This document shows, one piece after another, positions 2,777 to 49,957 of a stretch of 64,000 nt of DNA. Positions within the stretch are counted from its first letter, which is position 1. Each line of letters begins with the position of its first letter. The DNA is taken from contig NZ_CP028339.1 of assembly GCF_003030465.1 (NCBI RefSeq), positions 3,480,041-3,544,040 on the forward strand. Direction: 5' to 3'. The notes under the pieces are model-generated. The model was not told the origin of the DNA. It saw only the letters and a list, made by a program, of their open reading frames with translations, and did no database searches. Origin of the DNA: Thauera aromatica K172 (GTDB lineage: Bacteria; Pseudomonadota; Gammaproteobacteria; Burkholderiales; Rhodocyclaceae). The position numbers and the translations under genes are program-made.

Positions 2777-3736
2777 ATGTCGCTTCCCCTGCCCGAATTC
2801 TCCCGCGGCCGCCTCGTCATCGTCGGCGACGTGATGCTCGACCGCTACTGGCACGGCTCGACCACCCGCATCTCGCCCGAGGCGCCGGTGCCGGTGGTGA
2901 AGGTGGAGGCCGACGAGGTCCGCGCCGGCGGCGCCGGCAACGTCGCCCTCAATGCCGCCGGACTGGGCGCGCGCACCGAGCTGGTGGCACTGGTCGGCCG
3001 CGACGAGGCCGCCGTGCGCCTGCGTCAGCGCCTCGAAGAGGGGCGGGTGGTGTGCCGCCTGCTCGAAGCGCCGCAGCACCCGACGATCACCAAGCTGCGC
3101 ATCATCAGCCGCCACCAGCAGCTGATCCGGCTCGACTTCGAGGACAACTTCGCCGTGCTCGAATCGGCCGGCATCGAACGCGCCTTCGAAGAGGCCCTCC
3201 CCGGTGCCGGCGCGGCCGTGCTGTCCGACTACGGCAAAGGCACCCTGGCCCAGGTCGGCAGCATGATCCGCGTCGCCCGCGAGGCCGGCGTCCCGGTGGT
3301 GGTCGACCCCAAGGGCACGGACTTCGGCCGCTACTGCGGCGCCACCGTGATCACCCCCAACCAGAGCGAGTTCGAGGCCGTGGTCGGCCACTGCGCAGAC
3401 GAGCCGACCCTGCGCAGCCGCGGCGAGGCCCTGCGCGAGGCGCTCGAACTCGAGGCGGTGCTGATCACCCGCTCCGAACGCGGCATGACCCTGCTGCAAA
3501 AGGGCCGGGCGCCGCTCGACCTGCCCACCCGCGCGCGCGACGTGTTCGACGTCACCGGCGCGGGCGACACCGTGGTCGCCGTACTCGGCGCCGGGCTGGC
3601 CTGCGGCCTGACCCTGGCCGAGGCCACCGCGGTGGCCAACGTCGCCGCCGGCATCGTCGTCGGCAAGCTCGGCACCGCCACCGTCGCCCCCGCCGAACTC
3701 GCCGCCGCGCTGAACGCGGCCGGCCCCGCGGCCTGA
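2777..3736 (+). CDS. hldE1/rfaE1: D-glycero-beta-D-manno-heptose-7-phosphate kinase
   Basis: A PfkB/ribokinase-family enzyme of 319 residues that phosphorylates D-glycero-D-manno-heptose 7-phosphate at C1 in the ADP-heptose pathway. The N-terminus has [11 protein letters not shown] (about residues 15-25) and [11 protein letters not shown], both characteristic of HldE domain I; the PfkB signature DVTGAGDTV lies at residues 258-266 with the catalytic base D264. The C-terminal nucleotidyltransferase domain found in bifunctional HldE is absent; that activity is encoded in the fusion gene at 34475-35527. It is the first gene of a tight LPS core run, 26 bp before hldD. Confidence 0.93.
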
Positions 3737-41098: not shown

Positions 41099-42040
41099 AT
41101 GTGCACGACATGCGGATGCGGTGGCGGGGAAGCGCGGATCGGTGCCGTCTTCGGCGGCCGCAAAAAGGCACGCAAGGCAGCGGCGCGCGAGGCGGATGAA
41201 CGGCCGCCGGCCGAGCCCTCTCACCGCTGGCGCGCGTTGACCGCCGACACGCCTGCACAGCGCGCGCCCGGGAACGTCCGCGACCTCCCCGCTGCCGACC
41301 TCCCCGGCCACCGGCCACCGCCCGCGGCCCCCGCCGTACCTGCCGACGCCCCCTCCACCGCGACGCGGATGCTGGCGATCGAGCGCGACCTTCTCGCCCG
41401 CAACAACACCCTCGCCGCCGCCAACCGCGCCGCCTTCGCCGCGCGCAGCATCTTCGCCCTGAACCTGGTGTCGAGCCCCGGCTCGGGCAAGACCTCGCTC
41501 CTCGTGCGCATGCTCCAGGAGCTCGCCGGGCGCATCCCGGCAGCGGTCATCGAAGGCGACCAGCAGACCGAATTCGACGCCGAGCGCATCCGCGCCGCCG
41601 GCGTGCCGGCGCTGCAGATCAACACCGGCAAGGGCTGCCATCTCGATGCCGGCATGATCGCGCGCGCGCTGGCGCGGATGGACCTCGCCGCGGGCAGCCT
41701 GCTGCTGATCGAGAACGTCGGCAATCTCGTCTGCCCGGCCGCGTTCGACCTCGGCGAAGCGCACAAGGTGGCGATCCTGTCGGTCACCGAGGGCGAGGAC
41801 AAGCCGCTCAAGTATCCCGACCTGTTCGCCGCCGCCGACCTGCTGCTGCTCAACAAGGTGGACCTGCTGCCCCACCTCGCCTTCGATACGCAGCGTGCGA
41901 TCGACTACGCCCTGCGGCTCAATCCGCGCCTGCGCGTGATCCGGACTTCGGCGACCACCGGCGCGGGCGTGGGCGAATGGATCGACTGGATCGAAGCCGG
42001 GCTGGCGGCGGCACGCGCCGGGCGCGGCGCGAGCACATGA
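41099..42040 (+). CDS. hypB: Hydrogenase/urease nickel GTPase HypB
   Basis: A 313-residue SIMIBI-class GTPase. The N-terminal high-affinity nickel motif is [11 protein letters not shown]; no poly-His stretch is present, only an Ala/Pro-rich linker. The G domain has [18 protein letters not shown] (P loop, about residues 122-139), [10 protein letters not shown], and [11 protein letters not shown] (NKxD). The metal site at the dimer interface is GKGCHLD. Its stop overlaps the hypF start. Confidence 0.94.
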
Positions 42041-43343: not shown

Positions 43344-43610
43344 ATGTGCCTCGCCCTTCCCGCCCGCATCGTCGAACTGCTCGACGGCGAGCTGTGCCGC
43401 GTCGAACTGGGCGGCGTGCGCAAGGAAATCTCGCTCGCCCTCGTCGACGACGCCGCGGTCGGCGATTACGTCATCGTGCACGTCGGCTACGCCCTGACCC
43501 GGCTCGATCCGGCAGAAGCCGAGCGCACCCTGGCGCTGTTCGCTGCCGCCGGCCTCGATCCTGGCACCGCCCGCGATCACCCTGATGCGGAGCGGGGGAG
43601 CGACGCATGA
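43344..43610 (+). CDS. hypC: Hydrogenase maturation chaperone HypC
   Basis: An 88-residue protein with the invariant N-terminus [12 protein letters not shown] (Cys2 binds the Fe(CN)2CO unit) and the OB-like segment [17 protein letters not shown]. It shuttles the iron unit from HypD to the large subunit. The hypD start overlaps its stop (ATGA). Confidence 0.94.
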
Positions 43611-44749
43611 AGTACATCGACGAATTCCGCGACGGCCGCCTTGCCGCCGGGCTGGCGCGGGCGATCGCGCACGAGGTCGCCCCCGGCCGCGACTACGCCT
43701 TCATGGAATTCTGCGGCGGCCACACCCATGCGATCGCACGCTACGCCGTCACCGACTTGCTGCCGCCCACGGTGCGCATGATCCACGGCCCCGGCTGTCC
43801 GGTGTGCGTGCTGCCGATCGGGCGCATCGACCTGGCGATCGGGCTGGCGCTGGCGCGTCCCGAAGTCATCCTCTGCACCTACGGCGACTGCCTGCGCGTA
43901 CCCGCCTCCGGCGGCCTGTCGCTGATGAAGGCGAGGGCGCGCGGCGCCGACGTGCGCATGGTGTATTCGCCGGCCGACGCGCTCGCCCTCGCGGTGCGCG
44001 AACCGGCGCGCGAAGTGGTGTTCTTCGCCATCGGCTTCGAGACCACCACTCCGCCCACCGCACTCGTGCTGCGCGCGGCCGCGGCGCAGCGGCTGGACAA
44101 CTTCAGCGTGATCTGCAACCACGTGCTGACTCCGGCGGCGATCGCCGCGATCCTCGAATCGCCCGAAGTGCGCGAGCTCGGCACGGTGGCGCTGGACGGC
44201 TTCATCGGCCCCGCCCACGTGTCCACGGTGATCGGCAGCCGGCCCTACGAGCGCTTCGCCGCCGCGCACCGCAAGCCAGTCGTGATCGCCGGGTTCGAGC
44301 CGCTCGACGTGATCCAGGCGATCCGCATGCTGATCCGCCAGGTCAACGACGGCCGCGCCGAAGTCGAGAACGAATTCACCCGCGCCGTCACCCGCGACGG
44401 CAACCGCAAGGCCCAGGCGCTCGTCGCCGCCACCTTCGAGCCGCGCCCCAGCTTCGAATGGCGCGGCCTCGGCGCCGTGGCCGATTCGGCCCTGCGCATC
44501 CGCCCCGCCTTCGCGCGCTGGGACGCCGAGCGGAAATTCGCCCTCGCCGACCGCCCGGTGCCCGACCACAAGGCCTGCGCCTGCGGCGCGATCCTGCGCG
44601 GAGTACGCACTCCCGCCGACTGCAAGCTGTTCGCCACCGCATGCACGCCGGAAACGCCGATGGGCGCGTGCATGGTGTCCTCGGAAGGCGCCTGCGCCGC
44701 GCACTACACCTACGGCCGCTTCCGCGATGCGGCGCGGCGCACGCAATAG
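43607..44749 (+). CDS. hypD: Hydrogenase maturation iron-sulfur protein HypD
   Basis: A 380-residue scaffold for Fe(CN)2CO assembly. Conserved motifs are [24 protein letters not shown] (redox CxxC), [14 protein letters not shown], and the C-terminal [4Fe-4S] ligands in [36 protein letters not shown] with CAAHY. Length is normal for the family. Confidence 0.95.
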
Positions 44750-44777
44750 CGCCCGGCCTTCGGGCCTGTCGCACCGA

Positions 44778-45896
44778 ATGAATGAGGAACGGTTTGCGTC
44801 CCCTCCCGAATTTGAACCCGGAGCCCGCTTTACGATGAATGCCCACCACTCCGCTTCCACCCGAGCGCTGGACCTGCGCCACGGCCGCGTCGATCTGAGC
44901 TTCGGCGCCGGCGGGCGGGCGATGGCCCAGCTCGTCGCCGAACTGTTCGTGCGTGCCTTCGCCAACGACTACCTCGCCCGCGGCGACGACGGCGCGGTGC
45001 TGCCCGCCCCCGCCCCCGGCGAACGCCTGGTGGTGAGCACCGACGCCCACGTCGTCAGCCCGCTGTTCTTCCCCGGCGGTGACATCGGCAGCCTCTCGGT
45101 GCACGGCACGGTCAACGACCTCGCGGTGATGGGCGCCCGCCCGCTGTACCTGACGGCGGGCTTCATCCTCGAGGAAGGCTTCCCTCTCGCCGAGCTGGCG
45201 CGCATCGTCGACTCGATGGCCGCCGCCGCCCGTGCCGCCGGCGTGCACGTGGTGGCCGGCGACACCAAGGTCGTCGAGCAGGGCAAAGGCGACGGCGTAT
45301 TCATCACCACCGCCGGCATCGGCGCCCTGCCCGCCGGGCGCGACCCGGGCGGCGCCCGCGCCCGCCCCGGCGATGCGGTGCTAGTGTCGGGCGCCATCGG
45401 CGAGCACGGCATGGCGATCCTGGCGCAGCGCGAGGCGCTCGCCTTCGAGTCGACGATCGTCTCCGACAGCGCACCGCTGAACGGGCTGGTCGAAGCGCTC
45501 TATGACGCGGTGCCGGCGGCGGCGATCCGCGTCCTGCGCGACCCCACCCGCGGCGGGCTGGCGACCACCCTCAACGAGATCGCCGCCCAGTCGGGCGTAG
45601 GCATCGAGCTGGAGAAAAAGACAATCCCGGTGGCGCCCCAGGTCCGTGCGGCGTGCGAACTGCTCGGCCTCGATCCGCTCTACGTCGCCAACGAAGGCAA
45701 GCTGGTCGCGGTATGCGCCGCGGAGGCCGCCGACGCCCTGCTCGCGGCGATGCGCGCCCACCCGCTAGGCGCACAGGCGGCCTGCATCGGCACCGTCACC
45801 GCCGACCCGCAGCGCTTCGTCCAGATTCGTACCGGCTTCGGCGGGCGGCGCATGGTGGACTGGCTGGCTGGCGAACAGCTGCCGCGGATCTGCTGA
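44778..45896 (+). CDS. hypE: Hydrogenase maturation protein HypE
   Basis: A PurM-like protein of 372 residues (353 if the ATG at 44835, MNAHHSAS, is used; that start is closer to other HypE proteins). LRHGRVDLSFGAGGRAMAQLV, GTVNDLAVMGARP, VVAGDTKVVEQGKGDG and DPTRGGLATTLNEIA are conserved. The last four residues PRIC hold the Cys that receives the carbamoyl group from HypF and is dehydrated to thiocyanate. It is the last gene of the hyp run. Confidence 0.94.
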   Translation: MNEERFASPPEFEPGARFTMNAHHSASTRALDLRHGRVDLSFGAGGRAMAQLVAELFVRAFANDYLARGDDGAVLPAPAPGERLVVSTDAHVVSPLFFPGGDIGSLSVHGTVNDLAVMGARPLYLTAGFILEEGFPLAELARIVDSMAAAARAAGVHVVAGDTKVVEQGKGDGVFITTAGIGALPAGRDPGGARARPGDAVLVSGAIGEHGMAILAQREALAFESTIVSDSAPLNGLVEALYDAVPAAAIRVLRDPTRGGLATTLNEIAAQSGVGIELEKKTIPVAPQVRAACELLGLDPLYVANEGKLVAVCAAEAADALLAAMRAHPLGAQAACIGTVTADPQRFVQIRTGFGGRRMVDWLAGEQLPRIC

Positions 45897-48048: not shown

Positions 48049-48099
48049 AATGGATCGAGCTTGACCCCGGGCGCGCCCCTCCTGGACAATCGGGCCTCC

Positions 48100-48265
48100 T
48101 TTCGGTTCGACGAAACGGAACACGGTGCGAATCCGTGGCGGGCCCGCCGCTGTATCCGGGGACGGGCGCTGCAAGGTCGACAGACCGGCCACTGGCGGGG
48201 ACCACCCCGCCGGGAAGGCGCAGCGCTACGGCTGATCCGGGAGCCAGAAGACGTGTCGAACCGGC
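48100..48265 (+). promoter_or_regulatory. Cobalamin riboswitch
   Basis: The conserved elements of the AdoCbl-class aptamer occur in order: GGAACACGGTGCGAATCC (48117-48134), GCCGCTGTATCC (about 48146-48157), GGCCACTGG (48187-48195), CCGGGAAGGCGCAG (about 48210-48223) and the B12 box GAGCCAGAAGACG (48241-48253). It is followed by an intrinsic terminator and the peptide gene. Such switches normally lower expression when cobalamin is plentiful. It points rightward, away from the ALDH7 gene, so the regulated genes are the peptide/radical SAM pair. Confidence 0.93.
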
Positions 48266-48280
48266 GAGGAGTCCAGGCAA

Positions 48281-48336
48281 GGGCTCCGGTCGAGCGCATG
48301 CGAAAGCGTGCCCTCGACCGGGGCCCTTTTCGTTTT
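48281..48336 (+). terminator. Intrinsic terminator of the riboswitch platform
   Basis: A 14-bp stem (48281-48294 with 48313-48326, one G-U pair) continues into a six-pair inner helix capped by a GAAA tetraloop, then TTTTCGTTTTT. It ends 20 bases before the peptide start codon, so it can block transcription of both genes. Confidence 0.85.
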
Positions 48337-48356
48337 TCCGATTCGAGGATCCGATC

Positions 48357-48521
48357 ATGAAACCGACCCACACTCTTCCTGCCGCACAGTCCTGCCCGCC
48401 CGCCCCGGTCGCCGCCGAGGTGACCACCCCCGCGCCCACCCTCGCCGTGCGCAAGAGCTGCAACCCCGACGGCATCGGCCTGTCGCATTACGTGCTGATG
48501 GACCGAAAGGCGGCGAAATGA
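48357..48521 (+). CDS. cbpA: Short peptide precursor for radical SAM modification
   Basis: A 54-residue peptide encoded between the riboswitch terminator and a radical SAM gene. The N-terminal 30 residues are Pro/Thr/Ala-rich (VTTPAPTLAV); the C-terminal part KSCNPDGIGLSHYVLMDRK looks like the conserved core, with Cys35, Asp38, His43, Tyr45 as possible modification sites. There is another Cys at position 13. It has no signal peptide. Its stop overlaps the enzyme start (ATGA), which ensures matched synthesis. From recall, NCBI protein models name a peptide/enzyme pair under cobalamin riboswitch control CbpA/CbpB; this pair fits that description, but the assignment was not checked. Confidence 0.8.
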   Translation: MKPTHTLPAAQSCPPAPVAAEVTTPAPTLAVRKSCNPDGIGLSHYVLMDRKAAK

Positions 48522-49888
48522 GGGCCGCCCCGCTCCCGCCGCCGGGCCCGCGGCTGATTCCGGTCGACATCGGCCACCCGGTCTACGCCGCCCTCACCGA
48601 TCCGGCGACCGCGTTCTGGGCGCTGGTGGACAAGACCCGGGTCGATGCCGAGCTCGCCGGCGGCGCGCTTCTCGACGGCTACCGCGCCCGTTTCGACGAG
48701 TTCGCCCGCGAACTGCATGCGCTGCGTTTCGGCCTCAAGCCTTCCGGCGTGTATCTGAACCCGACCGAGCGCTGCAACCTCGACTGCCGCTACTGCTACC
48801 TGCCCGGCGAACAGCGCAGCGGCGGCCGCCACATGCCGGCGCAGACCCTGCTCGACTCGCTGCAGGCACTGAAGGACTACTTCGCGTCGACGTTGGGCGG
48901 CAGCGGGCGCAAGCCGCGCGCGATCTTCCACGGTGCCGAGCCCTTGATGAACAAGGACGCGGTGTTCACCGCGATCGACGCTTTCGCCGACGACTTCGCC
49001 TTCGGCGTGCAGACCAACGGCACCCTCCTCGACGACGCGGCGATCGCCTTCCTCACCGCGCGCAACGTCAGCATCGGGCTGTCGCTCGACGGCCCCGCCG
49101 CCGCGATCACCGATGCCACCCGGCGCACCTGGGGAGGGCAGAGCGTGCACGGCAAGGTGCTCGCGGCGATGGAAAAGCTGCGCGGCTACGGCTCGTGGAG
49201 CGTGATCACCACCTGCACCGGGGAAAACCTGCCGTGGCTGAGCGAGATGGTCGAGCTCTTCCACGCCCACGAAGTGCCGACCTGCATGCTCAACACCGTG
49301 CGCTGCACACTGCCCGGCGCGCGCGGGGTGAAGCCGGCCGATGCCGACATGGGGCGCGCCTTTTTCGCCGCCCTCGACCGCAGCCACGCGCTCTACCGGG
49401 AGAGCGGGCGCAAGCTGGTGGTGGCGAACTTCGCCAACATCGTGCTCGCGATCCTGGCGCCGAGCGCGCGCCGCCTGATGTGCGACATCTCGCCCTGCGG
49501 CGGCGGGCGCGCCTTCTTCGCCCTTGCCGCCGACGGCAGCCTTTATCCGTGCAGCGAGTTCATCGGCCTGCCGCGCTTCAACGGCGGCAAGCTGGTCGAC
49601 GGCGGCGTCGACGCGGCCCTCGCCTCGCCGGCGTTCCGCCCGGTGATCGAACGCGACGTGGACCGCTTCAGCCCCTGCGCCGAGTGCGCGATCCGCCATT
49701 TCTGTGGCTCGCCCTGCCCGGCCGAGGCGCACGAGATGAACGGCGGCATGGGCCGCACCGGTGCCTTCTGCGAGTTCTACAAGGAGCAGGTCAGTTACGC
49801 CCTGCGCCTGATCGCCGACGGCAAGGCCGACGACTTCCTGTGGGACGGCTGGGACGAGGGCACGGAGACCACTTTCCAGCTGCAATAG
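48518..49888 (+). CDS. cbpB: Peptide-modifying radical SAM/SPASM enzyme
   Basis: A 456-residue radical SAM protein. The SAM-cluster motif is CNLDCRYC (C86, C90, C93), followed by AIFHGAEPLMNKDAV (the SAM-binding GxEP) and VQTNGTLLDD. The C-terminal SPASM-like region has many cysteines (MCDISPCGG, LYPCSEF, CAECAIRHFCGSPCPAE, GAFCEFY), enough for two auxiliary [4Fe-4S] clusters. An N-terminal extension of about 75 residues (VDIGHPVYAALTDPATAFWALV) may be the peptide-recognition domain. With the overlapping 54-residue gene it makes up a ribosomal-peptide modification unit. No protease or exporter is next to it. Confidence 0.88.
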   Translation: MRAAPLPPPGPRLIPVDIGHPVYAALTDPATAFWALVDKTRVDAELAGGALLDGYRARFDEFARELHALRFGLKPSGVYLNPTERCNLDCRYCYLPGEQRSGGRHMPAQTLLDSLQALKDYFASTLGGSGRKPRAIFHGAEPLMNKDAVFTAIDAFADDFAFGVQTNGTLLDDAAIAFLTARNVSIGLSLDGPAAAITDATRRTWGGQSVHGKVLAAMEKLRGYGSWSVITTCTGENLPWLSEMVELFHAHEVPTCMLNTVRCTLPGARGVKPADADMGRAFFAALDRSHALYRESGRKLVVANFANIVLAILAPSARRLMCDISPCGGGRAFFALAADGSLYPCSEFIGLPRFNGGKLVDGGVDAALASPAFRPVIERDVDRFSPCAECAIRHFCGSPCPAEAHEMNGGMGRTGAFCEFYKEQVSYALRLIADGKADDFLWDGWDEGTETTFQLQ

Positions 49889-49911
49889 GGCGGCGGCTGG
49901 CGGAAGACGAA

Positions 49912-49937
49912 AAAAATCCCGCATCAGCGGGATTTTT
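49912..49937. terminator. Bidirectional intrinsic terminator
   Basis: A perfect 11-bp stem AAAAATCCCGC/GCGGGATTTTT with loop ATCA lies between the convergent radical SAM and helicase genes. The A and T runs let it stop transcription from both sides. Confidence 0.9.
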
Positions 49938-49957
49938 CTGCACGCACAGCGCGGGCG

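Follow-up and report, generated by a model that had tools for sequence, protein, structure and literature searches.

Why should a peptide that is presumably matured by a radical S-adenosylmethionine (SAM) enzyme be placed behind a vitamin riboswitch? The question is raised by a locus on the chromosome of Thauera aromatica K172 (3.7 Mb; genome G000), in which a cobalamin riboswitch and an intrinsic terminator precede cbpA, encoding a short precursor peptide, and cbpB, encoding a predicted radical SAM/SPASM peptide-modifying enzyme. The window, that is the whole stretch of DNA analysed, comprises 64,000 nucleotides (C1:3480041-3544040), and positions within it are counted from its first letter. 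The reading favoured here, with a probability of about 0.5, is that cbpAB belongs to the B12-supply regulon and provides an intracellular modified peptide that would assist corrinoid supply where synthesis and salvage have a step in common, without bypassing B12. It rests on the other cobalamin riboswitches of the same genome, on B12-synthesis genes found beside the pair in related loci, on co-occurrence with B12 genes in the family sample, and on holders of the pair without ring synthesis.

A cobalamin riboswitch heads a conserved peptide-enzyme pair

The leader of cbpAB gives a full-length match to the Rfam cobalamin riboswitch (RF00174, E 9.5e-18; coordinates and scores in Table 1), the only match at gathering score in the window, and a local riboswitch model, whose own alignment includes the window sequence, places the aptamer at 48084-48273. 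The segment 48272-48345 folds at -46 kcal/mol (z -6.1, with 0 of 200 shuffles as good) and is followed by a T-run; the terminator hairpin itself (48279-48328) has 22 pairs, and it is predicted from the sequence to act as an OFF switch upon B12 binding. The original prediction, made from the DNA letters alone, had proposed a cobalamin riboswitch with a strong terminator, and the Rfam check that it asked for supports this; its feature start at 48100 lies within the riboswitch, which begins earlier, at 48086.

The two gene products score far above the cut-offs of the NCBIfam models for CbpA (TIGR04164) and CbpB (TIGR04163), and the genes are adjacent, sharing a 4-nt overlap between the cbpA stop and the cbpB ATG (ATGA). 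No family-level difference is seen, and membership of the CbpA/CbpB family, proposed in the original prediction together with a 54-residue peptide whose stop overlaps the enzyme start, is virtually certain from the sequence matches. The pair is no new kind, as CbpA and CbpB have already been named by NCBIfam and RefSeq, where both names appear in the annotation of the Methylovirgula plasmid pHY1. The NCBIfam short names cobo_pep and rSAM_cobopep suggest that the curators knew of the B12 link, and a literature search found CbpA/CbpB treated in no open-access title or abstract start. What is added here is the likely place of the pair in the B12-supply regulon, and a precursor that is nearly leaderless and whose core is sometimes doubled. 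On pHY1 (L111, 11792-16741), a Crp/Fnr regulator gene, pqqA, pqqD and pqqE come after cbpAB; spread of the pair by plasmids was considered and dropped, with just one such record among 72,556.

Relatives were gathered by scanning one genome per species, which gave 427, and the best 80 of the 427 were kept as loci. The peptide gene adjoins the enzyme gene on its upstream side in 80/80, bearing out the conservation that had been proposed as a check. The spacing, computed for 79 loci (L064 gave no value), is an overlap of 4 or 1 nt in 62 and at most 13 nt in 76, being wider in L021, L077 and L099. According to the local model, 70 of the 80 loci have a riboswitch of their own, with its 3' end 175-425 nt ahead of the matched start of the enzyme, which agrees with the proposed tie to cobalamin status; the leaders of the window, L074, L076, L077, L078, L084, L094, L097 and L100 were used to build this model and match by construction. 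Rfam itself confirms the riboswitch in 10 of 14 loci submitted, and also in L049, L051 and L075. Two loci without a full riboswitch are cut by a contig end (L054, and L091, which keeps a 33-nt 3' piece), while in L053, L055, L057 and L072 an Rfam cobalamin riboswitch (90.6-125.8 bits) heads the operon, ~3.3-6.2 kb before the enzyme. A T-run preceded by a hairpin of -10 kcal/mol or stronger is present in 67 of the 70 related leaders under a simple in-house rule without shuffle control, two of the 67 looking poor (L071, L099); under the same rule it is missing from L029, L084 and L046, the last having a run of N in its leader.

Additional cobalamin riboswitches accompany some of these loci. Two lie back to back in L077 (7183-7607), L080 (7285-7714) and L082 (3275-3703), with Rfam run on L077 only; one serves cbpAB and the other a divergent gene run that includes CobU and CobT, joined by CobQ, CbiB and CobO in L077 and L080. 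In L049 (7853-8076), L051 (9568-9791) and L075 (3963-4139), a second riboswitch lies close 3' of cbpB, where it leads the B12 genes that follow. In L055, positions 3092-3230 match a group II intron fragment (RF02003, 94.1 bits), directly ahead of the cbi-operon riboswitch. Two copies of cbpAB are present in each of three assemblies (L049 and L050, L055 and L063, L068 and L069), and the tree places the copies L055 and L063 in separate clades.

Association of cbpAB with genes for B12 supply

The T. aromatica genome contains four cobalamin riboswitches above the Rfam gathering score, one of them at cbpAB. The second (L107) heads CbiM-, CbiX-, CbiD-, CbiE/T- and CbiH-like genes on one strand, the third (L117) precedes a BtuB-like gene, and the fourth, at 1048113, precedes BluB at 1048395. 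The targets of cobalamin riboswitches have been grouped into four classes, namely synthesis, B12 transport, cobalt transport and isozymes, in one classification of the regulons (PMC3766115). The RNA family is the same, and the three other T. aromatica switches precede B12-supply genes, whereas a peptide with its modifying enzyme fits none of the four classes.

In a family sample of 199 genomes (17 CbpB holders, 182 others), CbpB accompanies CbiD (13/17 holders versus 45/182 others, p 3e-5), BluB (15/17 versus 83/182, p 7e-4), CobB (17/17 versus 132/182, p 0.008) and CobS (17/17 versus 138/182, p 0.015). MetE occurs in 0/17 holders versus 27/182 others, a difference that is not significant (p 0.14). 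Neither CbiD nor CbiH is matched at E 1e-20 in four holders (G075, G104, G179 and G243), of which the first three are 98-100% complete, and in G179 (L102) cbpAB adjoins a late-pathway cluster of CobO, CobB, BluB, CobC/CobD-type and CbiB genes. These holders without ring synthesis, and the location of cbpAB beside a late-pathway cluster in one of them, suggest that the step concerned is one that salvagers also need. CobN was uninformative as a marker of the aerobic pathway, being matched at E 1e-20 in 7/17 holder genomes and above its cut-off in none. Among 50 genomes chosen from those behind the 80 loci, most of them metagenome bins of unstated completeness, CbiD is found in 34 at E 1e-20, and CbiH in 3 of the 16 without it; this set overlaps the family sample (L060 is on a contig of G029, L058 in G072 and L066 in G216) and is not independent of it. 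Of 61 close relatives, 4 have CbpB above its cut-off, as do 11 of 398 genomes from the phylum, T. aromatica being counted in both, and the holders include named isolates of Aromatoleum, Dechloromonas and Azospira.

B12-synthesis genes are found near cbpAB in 26 of the 80 loci, all 26 matching a representative at >150 bits, and in 14 of the 39 loci with >17 kb of sequence. The families were confirmed by NCBIfam on the representatives, except that the CbiX-, CbiG-, CbiC-, CbiM- and BtuB-like representatives score below the cut-offs; for a small membrane protein encoded ahead of CobO, NCBIfam gave no match. The 26 include L031 and L035, which have BluB only (264.9 bits versus a cut-off of 150 in L031). 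BluB-like genes occur in 13 loci and BtuB-like genes in 3; in L060, cbpB overlaps bluB by 4 nt, and in L059 and L064 it adjoins bluB. In L053, L055, L057 and L072, cbpAB lies within a cbi operon, between CbiF- and CbiX-like genes. On the CbpB tree, the presence of B12 neighbours changes 17 times, at least 15 of these by well-supported branches, versus a shuffled mean of 22.2; the neighbourhood has thus been gained or lost many times, and near relatives share it. The pair in L072 (7779-9350) occupies the same slot as in L053, L055 and L057 (~8001), yet its CbpB belongs to a different well-supported clade, as might result from an exchange of the enzyme at a fixed position.

Apart from the enzyme, no neighbour cluster exceeds 13 of the 80 loci. 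Eight clusters occur in at least 8 loci, and six of these are B12 genes by family search on the representative. A shared neighbour outside B12 metabolism was sought, and the only candidates are the other two clusters, an ABC-type ATPase and a UbiD-like protein (named by eye, 8/80 loci each). The ABC-type ATPase aside, no recurring protease or exporter was noticed beside the pair in the 80 loci, no search having been aimed at export genes, and no recurring immunity or sensor gene was seen among the neighbour clusters.

The CbpA core and the CbpB enzyme

All 80 precursors share the core R-[KRQ]-x-C-x-x-x-G-x-G-L-S-H-[YF]-[VI]-L, which is nearly identical across about ten phyla, judged from record titles. 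The search pattern fixed the Cys, both Gly and the Ser, and restricted the Leu position to [LIVM], the His position to [HQN] and the Tyr position to aromatic residues; every locus matched it and none was dropped, so that variants outside the pattern could not appear, and one core was counted for each two-core precursor. The aromatic residue is Tyr in 79 loci and Phe in one (L084). Two residues after the Cys stands Pro (44 loci), Ala (29), Thr (5) or Val (2), and position +3 is not conserved (Asp in 56, Glu in 12, other residues in 12). Neither the sequence nor the length of the segment ahead of the core is constant; the precursors (best start, n=79) have a median length of 51 aa, the shortest being 32 aa. 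Of the leader and core expected of a ribosomally synthesized and post-translationally modified peptide (RiPP), the core is thus conserved and a conserved leader is not seen in the 80 loci. Two full cores stand in tandem in one chain in L071 (Neptunomonas) and in L074 and L075 (both Sedimenticola), which form one clade on the enzyme tree; because cores are doubled within a chain, the core motif is likely the functional unit.

The TIGR04163 match spans CbpB residues 15-441. The radical SAM motif CX3CX2C is formed by C86, C90 and C93, and the C-terminal SPASM domain is recognized by TIGR04085 (46.6 bits, cut-off 27), as anticipated from the cysteine pattern; the Pfam SPASM model PF13186 remains below its cut-off (18.3 versus 21.5 bits). 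The three motif cysteines and C322, C327, C345, C387, C390, C396, C400 and C418 are invariant in a 47-sequence alignment. In an AlphaFold2 model (mean predicted local distance difference test score, pLDDT, 86.7), a strand-strand-strand-helix-helix part at 14-71 is predicted to precede the radical SAM barrel and the SPASM domain, and may be a peptide-binding domain resembling a RiPP recognition element (RRE). The nearest CbpB paralogue in T. aromatica is a radical SAM enzyme at C1:1350665-1351732 (120.7 bits, below the CbpB cut-off), and G025 also has a paralogue resembling it.

The closest solved folds to the model are CteB, anSME, ChlB, TigE and SuiB, and the first four are also the closest solved structures by sequence; since these enzymes carry out different chemistry, the fold does not fix the CbpB reaction. 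The best fold match is the SCIFF maturase CteB (5WHY, E 8e-19), and the best NCBIfam model after CbpB is PapB (NF047865, 107 bits versus a cut-off of 340), CbpB lying far below the PapB/ranthipeptide and SCIFF cut-offs. In contrast to the PapB thioether systems, CbpA has a single conserved Cys, and a PapB-style Cys-x-x-Asp thioether was rejected as a general rule on account of the variable +3 residue; chemistry needing the Tyr hydroxyl is weakened as a general rule by the Phe in L084. The sulfatase motif is [CS]-x-[PA]-x-R. CbpA has a similar C-x-[PA] in 73/80 loci, mostly from related Proteobacteria, but Gly and not Arg at +4 in all 80. The fold of CbpB also matches anSME (4K38, root-mean-square deviation 3.3), while the anaerobic sulfatase maturase model TIGR03942 gives 88 bits versus a cut-off of 349.45. 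In a manual numbering, CbpB C345-S346-E347-F348 aligns where anSME has C276-D277-F278, of which D277 is presumably the catalytic base. The C-x-[PA] motif and the acidic E347 beside this base position offer a lead for Cys oxidation, formylglycine formation being only a lead, and formation of a thioether or an aromatic cross-link is equally plausible.

Flanking features of the locus

Both flanking genes lie on the opposite strand, with an L-piperidine-6-carboxylate dehydrogenase gene upstream and a DEAD-box RNA helicase gene downstream, in agreement with the earlier remark that no protease, exporter or immunity gene is adjacent; because of these orientations, cbpAB looks like a stand-alone two-gene transcript. 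The inverted repeat 3' of cbpB resembles a bidirectional terminator placed between converging genes. A GAGG ribosome-binding-like motif, read from the sequence, lies directly 5' of cbpA. The promoter-like site (one found versus a shuffle mean of 0.0) is alone no evidence of function. Hydrogenase maturation genes lie a few kb before the pair (HypB, 41099-42040; HypD, 43607-44749; HypE, 44727-45896; NCBIfam), and there is no sign that these three belong with cbpAB.

Table 1. Features of the cbpAB locus, in window coordinates
Feature	Position	Strand	Description	Basis
Promoter-like site	48061..48090	+	TTGACC-18 nt-GACAAT	Consensus scan
Cobalamin riboswitch aptamer	48086..48274	+		Rfam RF00174, 78.8 bits (gathering 31.5)
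Intrinsic terminator	48279..48340	+	Hairpin and T-run	Fold energy, shuffles
cbpA	48357..48521	+	54-aa precursor peptide MKPTHTLPAAQSCPPAPVAAEVTTPAPTLAVRKSCNPDGIGLSHYVLMDRKAAK	TIGR04164, 52.9 bits (cut-off 35)
CbpA conserved core	48438..48509	+	Residues 28-51	Invariant R, C, G, G, L, S, H, L in 80/80 loci
cbpB	48518..49888	+	456-aa radical SAM/SPASM peptide-modifying enzyme (predicted)	TIGR04163, 692.9 bits (cut-off 375)
Short inverted repeat	49911..49938	.	Flanked by A-run and T-run	Read from sequence; absent from the list of the consensus scan

Possible roles of the modified peptide

Peptide-derived cofactors such as pyrroloquinoline quinone (PQQ) and mycofactocin exist, and by this precedent the modified CbpA could be the redox or radical cofactor of an enzyme that replaces a B12-dependent one at low B12, as the original prediction had suggested with a cobalamin-sparing cofactor. 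The predicted OFF switch suits a product of low B12, and isozymes of B12-dependent enzymes are among the riboswitch target classes named above; the proposal is nevertheless disfavoured and unlikely, as no enzyme partner recurs, the commonest neighbours are B12-synthesis genes and the holders are enriched in B12 makers, the absence of MetE from the holders pointing the same way at a non-significant p of 0.14. Control by B12 together with the invariant Cys and His would suit a secreted cobalophore or corrinophore, exported to bind cobalt or corrinoid and returning via BtuB-like receptors, genes for which lie near the pair in the three loci mentioned, and the tandem cores resemble those of multi-core RiPPs. 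Secretion is a rather unlikely fate, given that the shortest precursors are almost all core and show no signal peptide by eye, and that no exporter or peptidase was noticed to recur apart from the ABC-type ATPase cluster, in the survey without a dedicated search described above.

Other explanations assign the peptide to a single step, or to no step at all, of B12 supply. BluB is not known to work under low oxygen, and CbpA might help to provide the cobamide lower ligand in such conditions, or assist BluB itself. The overlap or contact of cbpB with bluB in three loci, and the enrichment of BluB in holders and its recurrence among the neighbours, are consistent with such a helper, which is improbable all the same, as G075 and G190 hold cbpAB without BluB at E 1e-30 and bluB is not adjacent in most loci. 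Delivery of cobalt to the chelatase CbiX, confined to the cobalt-early pathway, is suggested by the location of cbpAB directly before CbiX-like genes, near CbiM-like cobalt permeases, in L053, L055, L057 and L072; it is distinctly improbable in view of the near-complete holders G075, G104 and G179 without CbiD or CbiH, and of CobN being above cut-off in 0/17 holder genomes, and cobalt insertion as the sole role is weakened by the holders without ring synthesis. A role as an antimicrobial or a signal, with a B12 switch that was simply borrowed, would be in keeping with radical SAM-made peptides often being antibiotics (PMC5682303, PMC8326336), but it is very unlikely for a core that is nearly identical across about ten phyla, whose B12-gene neighbours arise repeatedly and beside which no recurring immunity or sensor gene was seen.

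Several observations weigh against a role of cbpAB in B12 supply, the reading preferred here. No riboswitch was found near cbpA in L037, L088, L089 and L092, by the local model or by Rfam to E 0.1. No B12 gene was found in 54 of the 80 loci within the 3-17 kb examined, and the loci without a B12 match are somewhat shorter (median 13.9 versus 17.3 kb), which inflates the number of tree changes through false absences. At E 1e-5, none of 19 B12 representatives finds a match anywhere in the 64-kb window. The family tests were made without correction for relatedness, the 17 holders falling in 10 genera, and many CobB and some CobS matches, including those of T. aromatica itself, are below curated cut-offs, so that paralogues were possibly counted. 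Holders are moreover a minority of B12 makers, 45 of the 58 CbiD genomes of the family being without CbpB.

If cbpAB does belong to B12 supply, scarcity of cobamide would cause the riboswitch to let transcription pass the terminator, as its layout implies, and CbpA and CbpB would then be made, perhaps in a coupled manner, from their overlapping genes. CbpB would modify the CbpA core by radical SAM chemistry around the invariant Cys and the segment G-x-G-L-S-H-[YF]-[VI]-L, and the small peptide would remain in the cell, as is suggested by the lack of a conserved leader and of any protease or exporter noticed to recur beside the pair. There it might help to handle corrinoid or cobalt, as a ligand, a chaperone or an aid to redox reactions, for a step required by de novo makers and salvagers alike, which could lie between cobyrinate and cobamide or at adenosylation. 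A metal or corrinoid ligand role, the other suggestion of the original prediction, fits the invariant Cys and His of the core; as a specific proposal, ligand or chaperone is doubtful.

Implications

It is tentatively proposed, at less than even odds, that CbpA is the first radical-SAM-modified peptide for B12 supply, a nearly leaderless and sometimes two-core intracellular cofactor or chaperone that would bind corrinoid or cobalt and be induced when B12 runs short, both in makers and in salvagers across about ten phyla. If this is true, an uncharacterised peptide family gains a testable role, and a modified peptide would be part of the machinery of the cell under a vitamin riboswitch and not an antibiotic. 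The assembly or assimilation of B12 would then have a peptide component that is missing from the textbook pathways.

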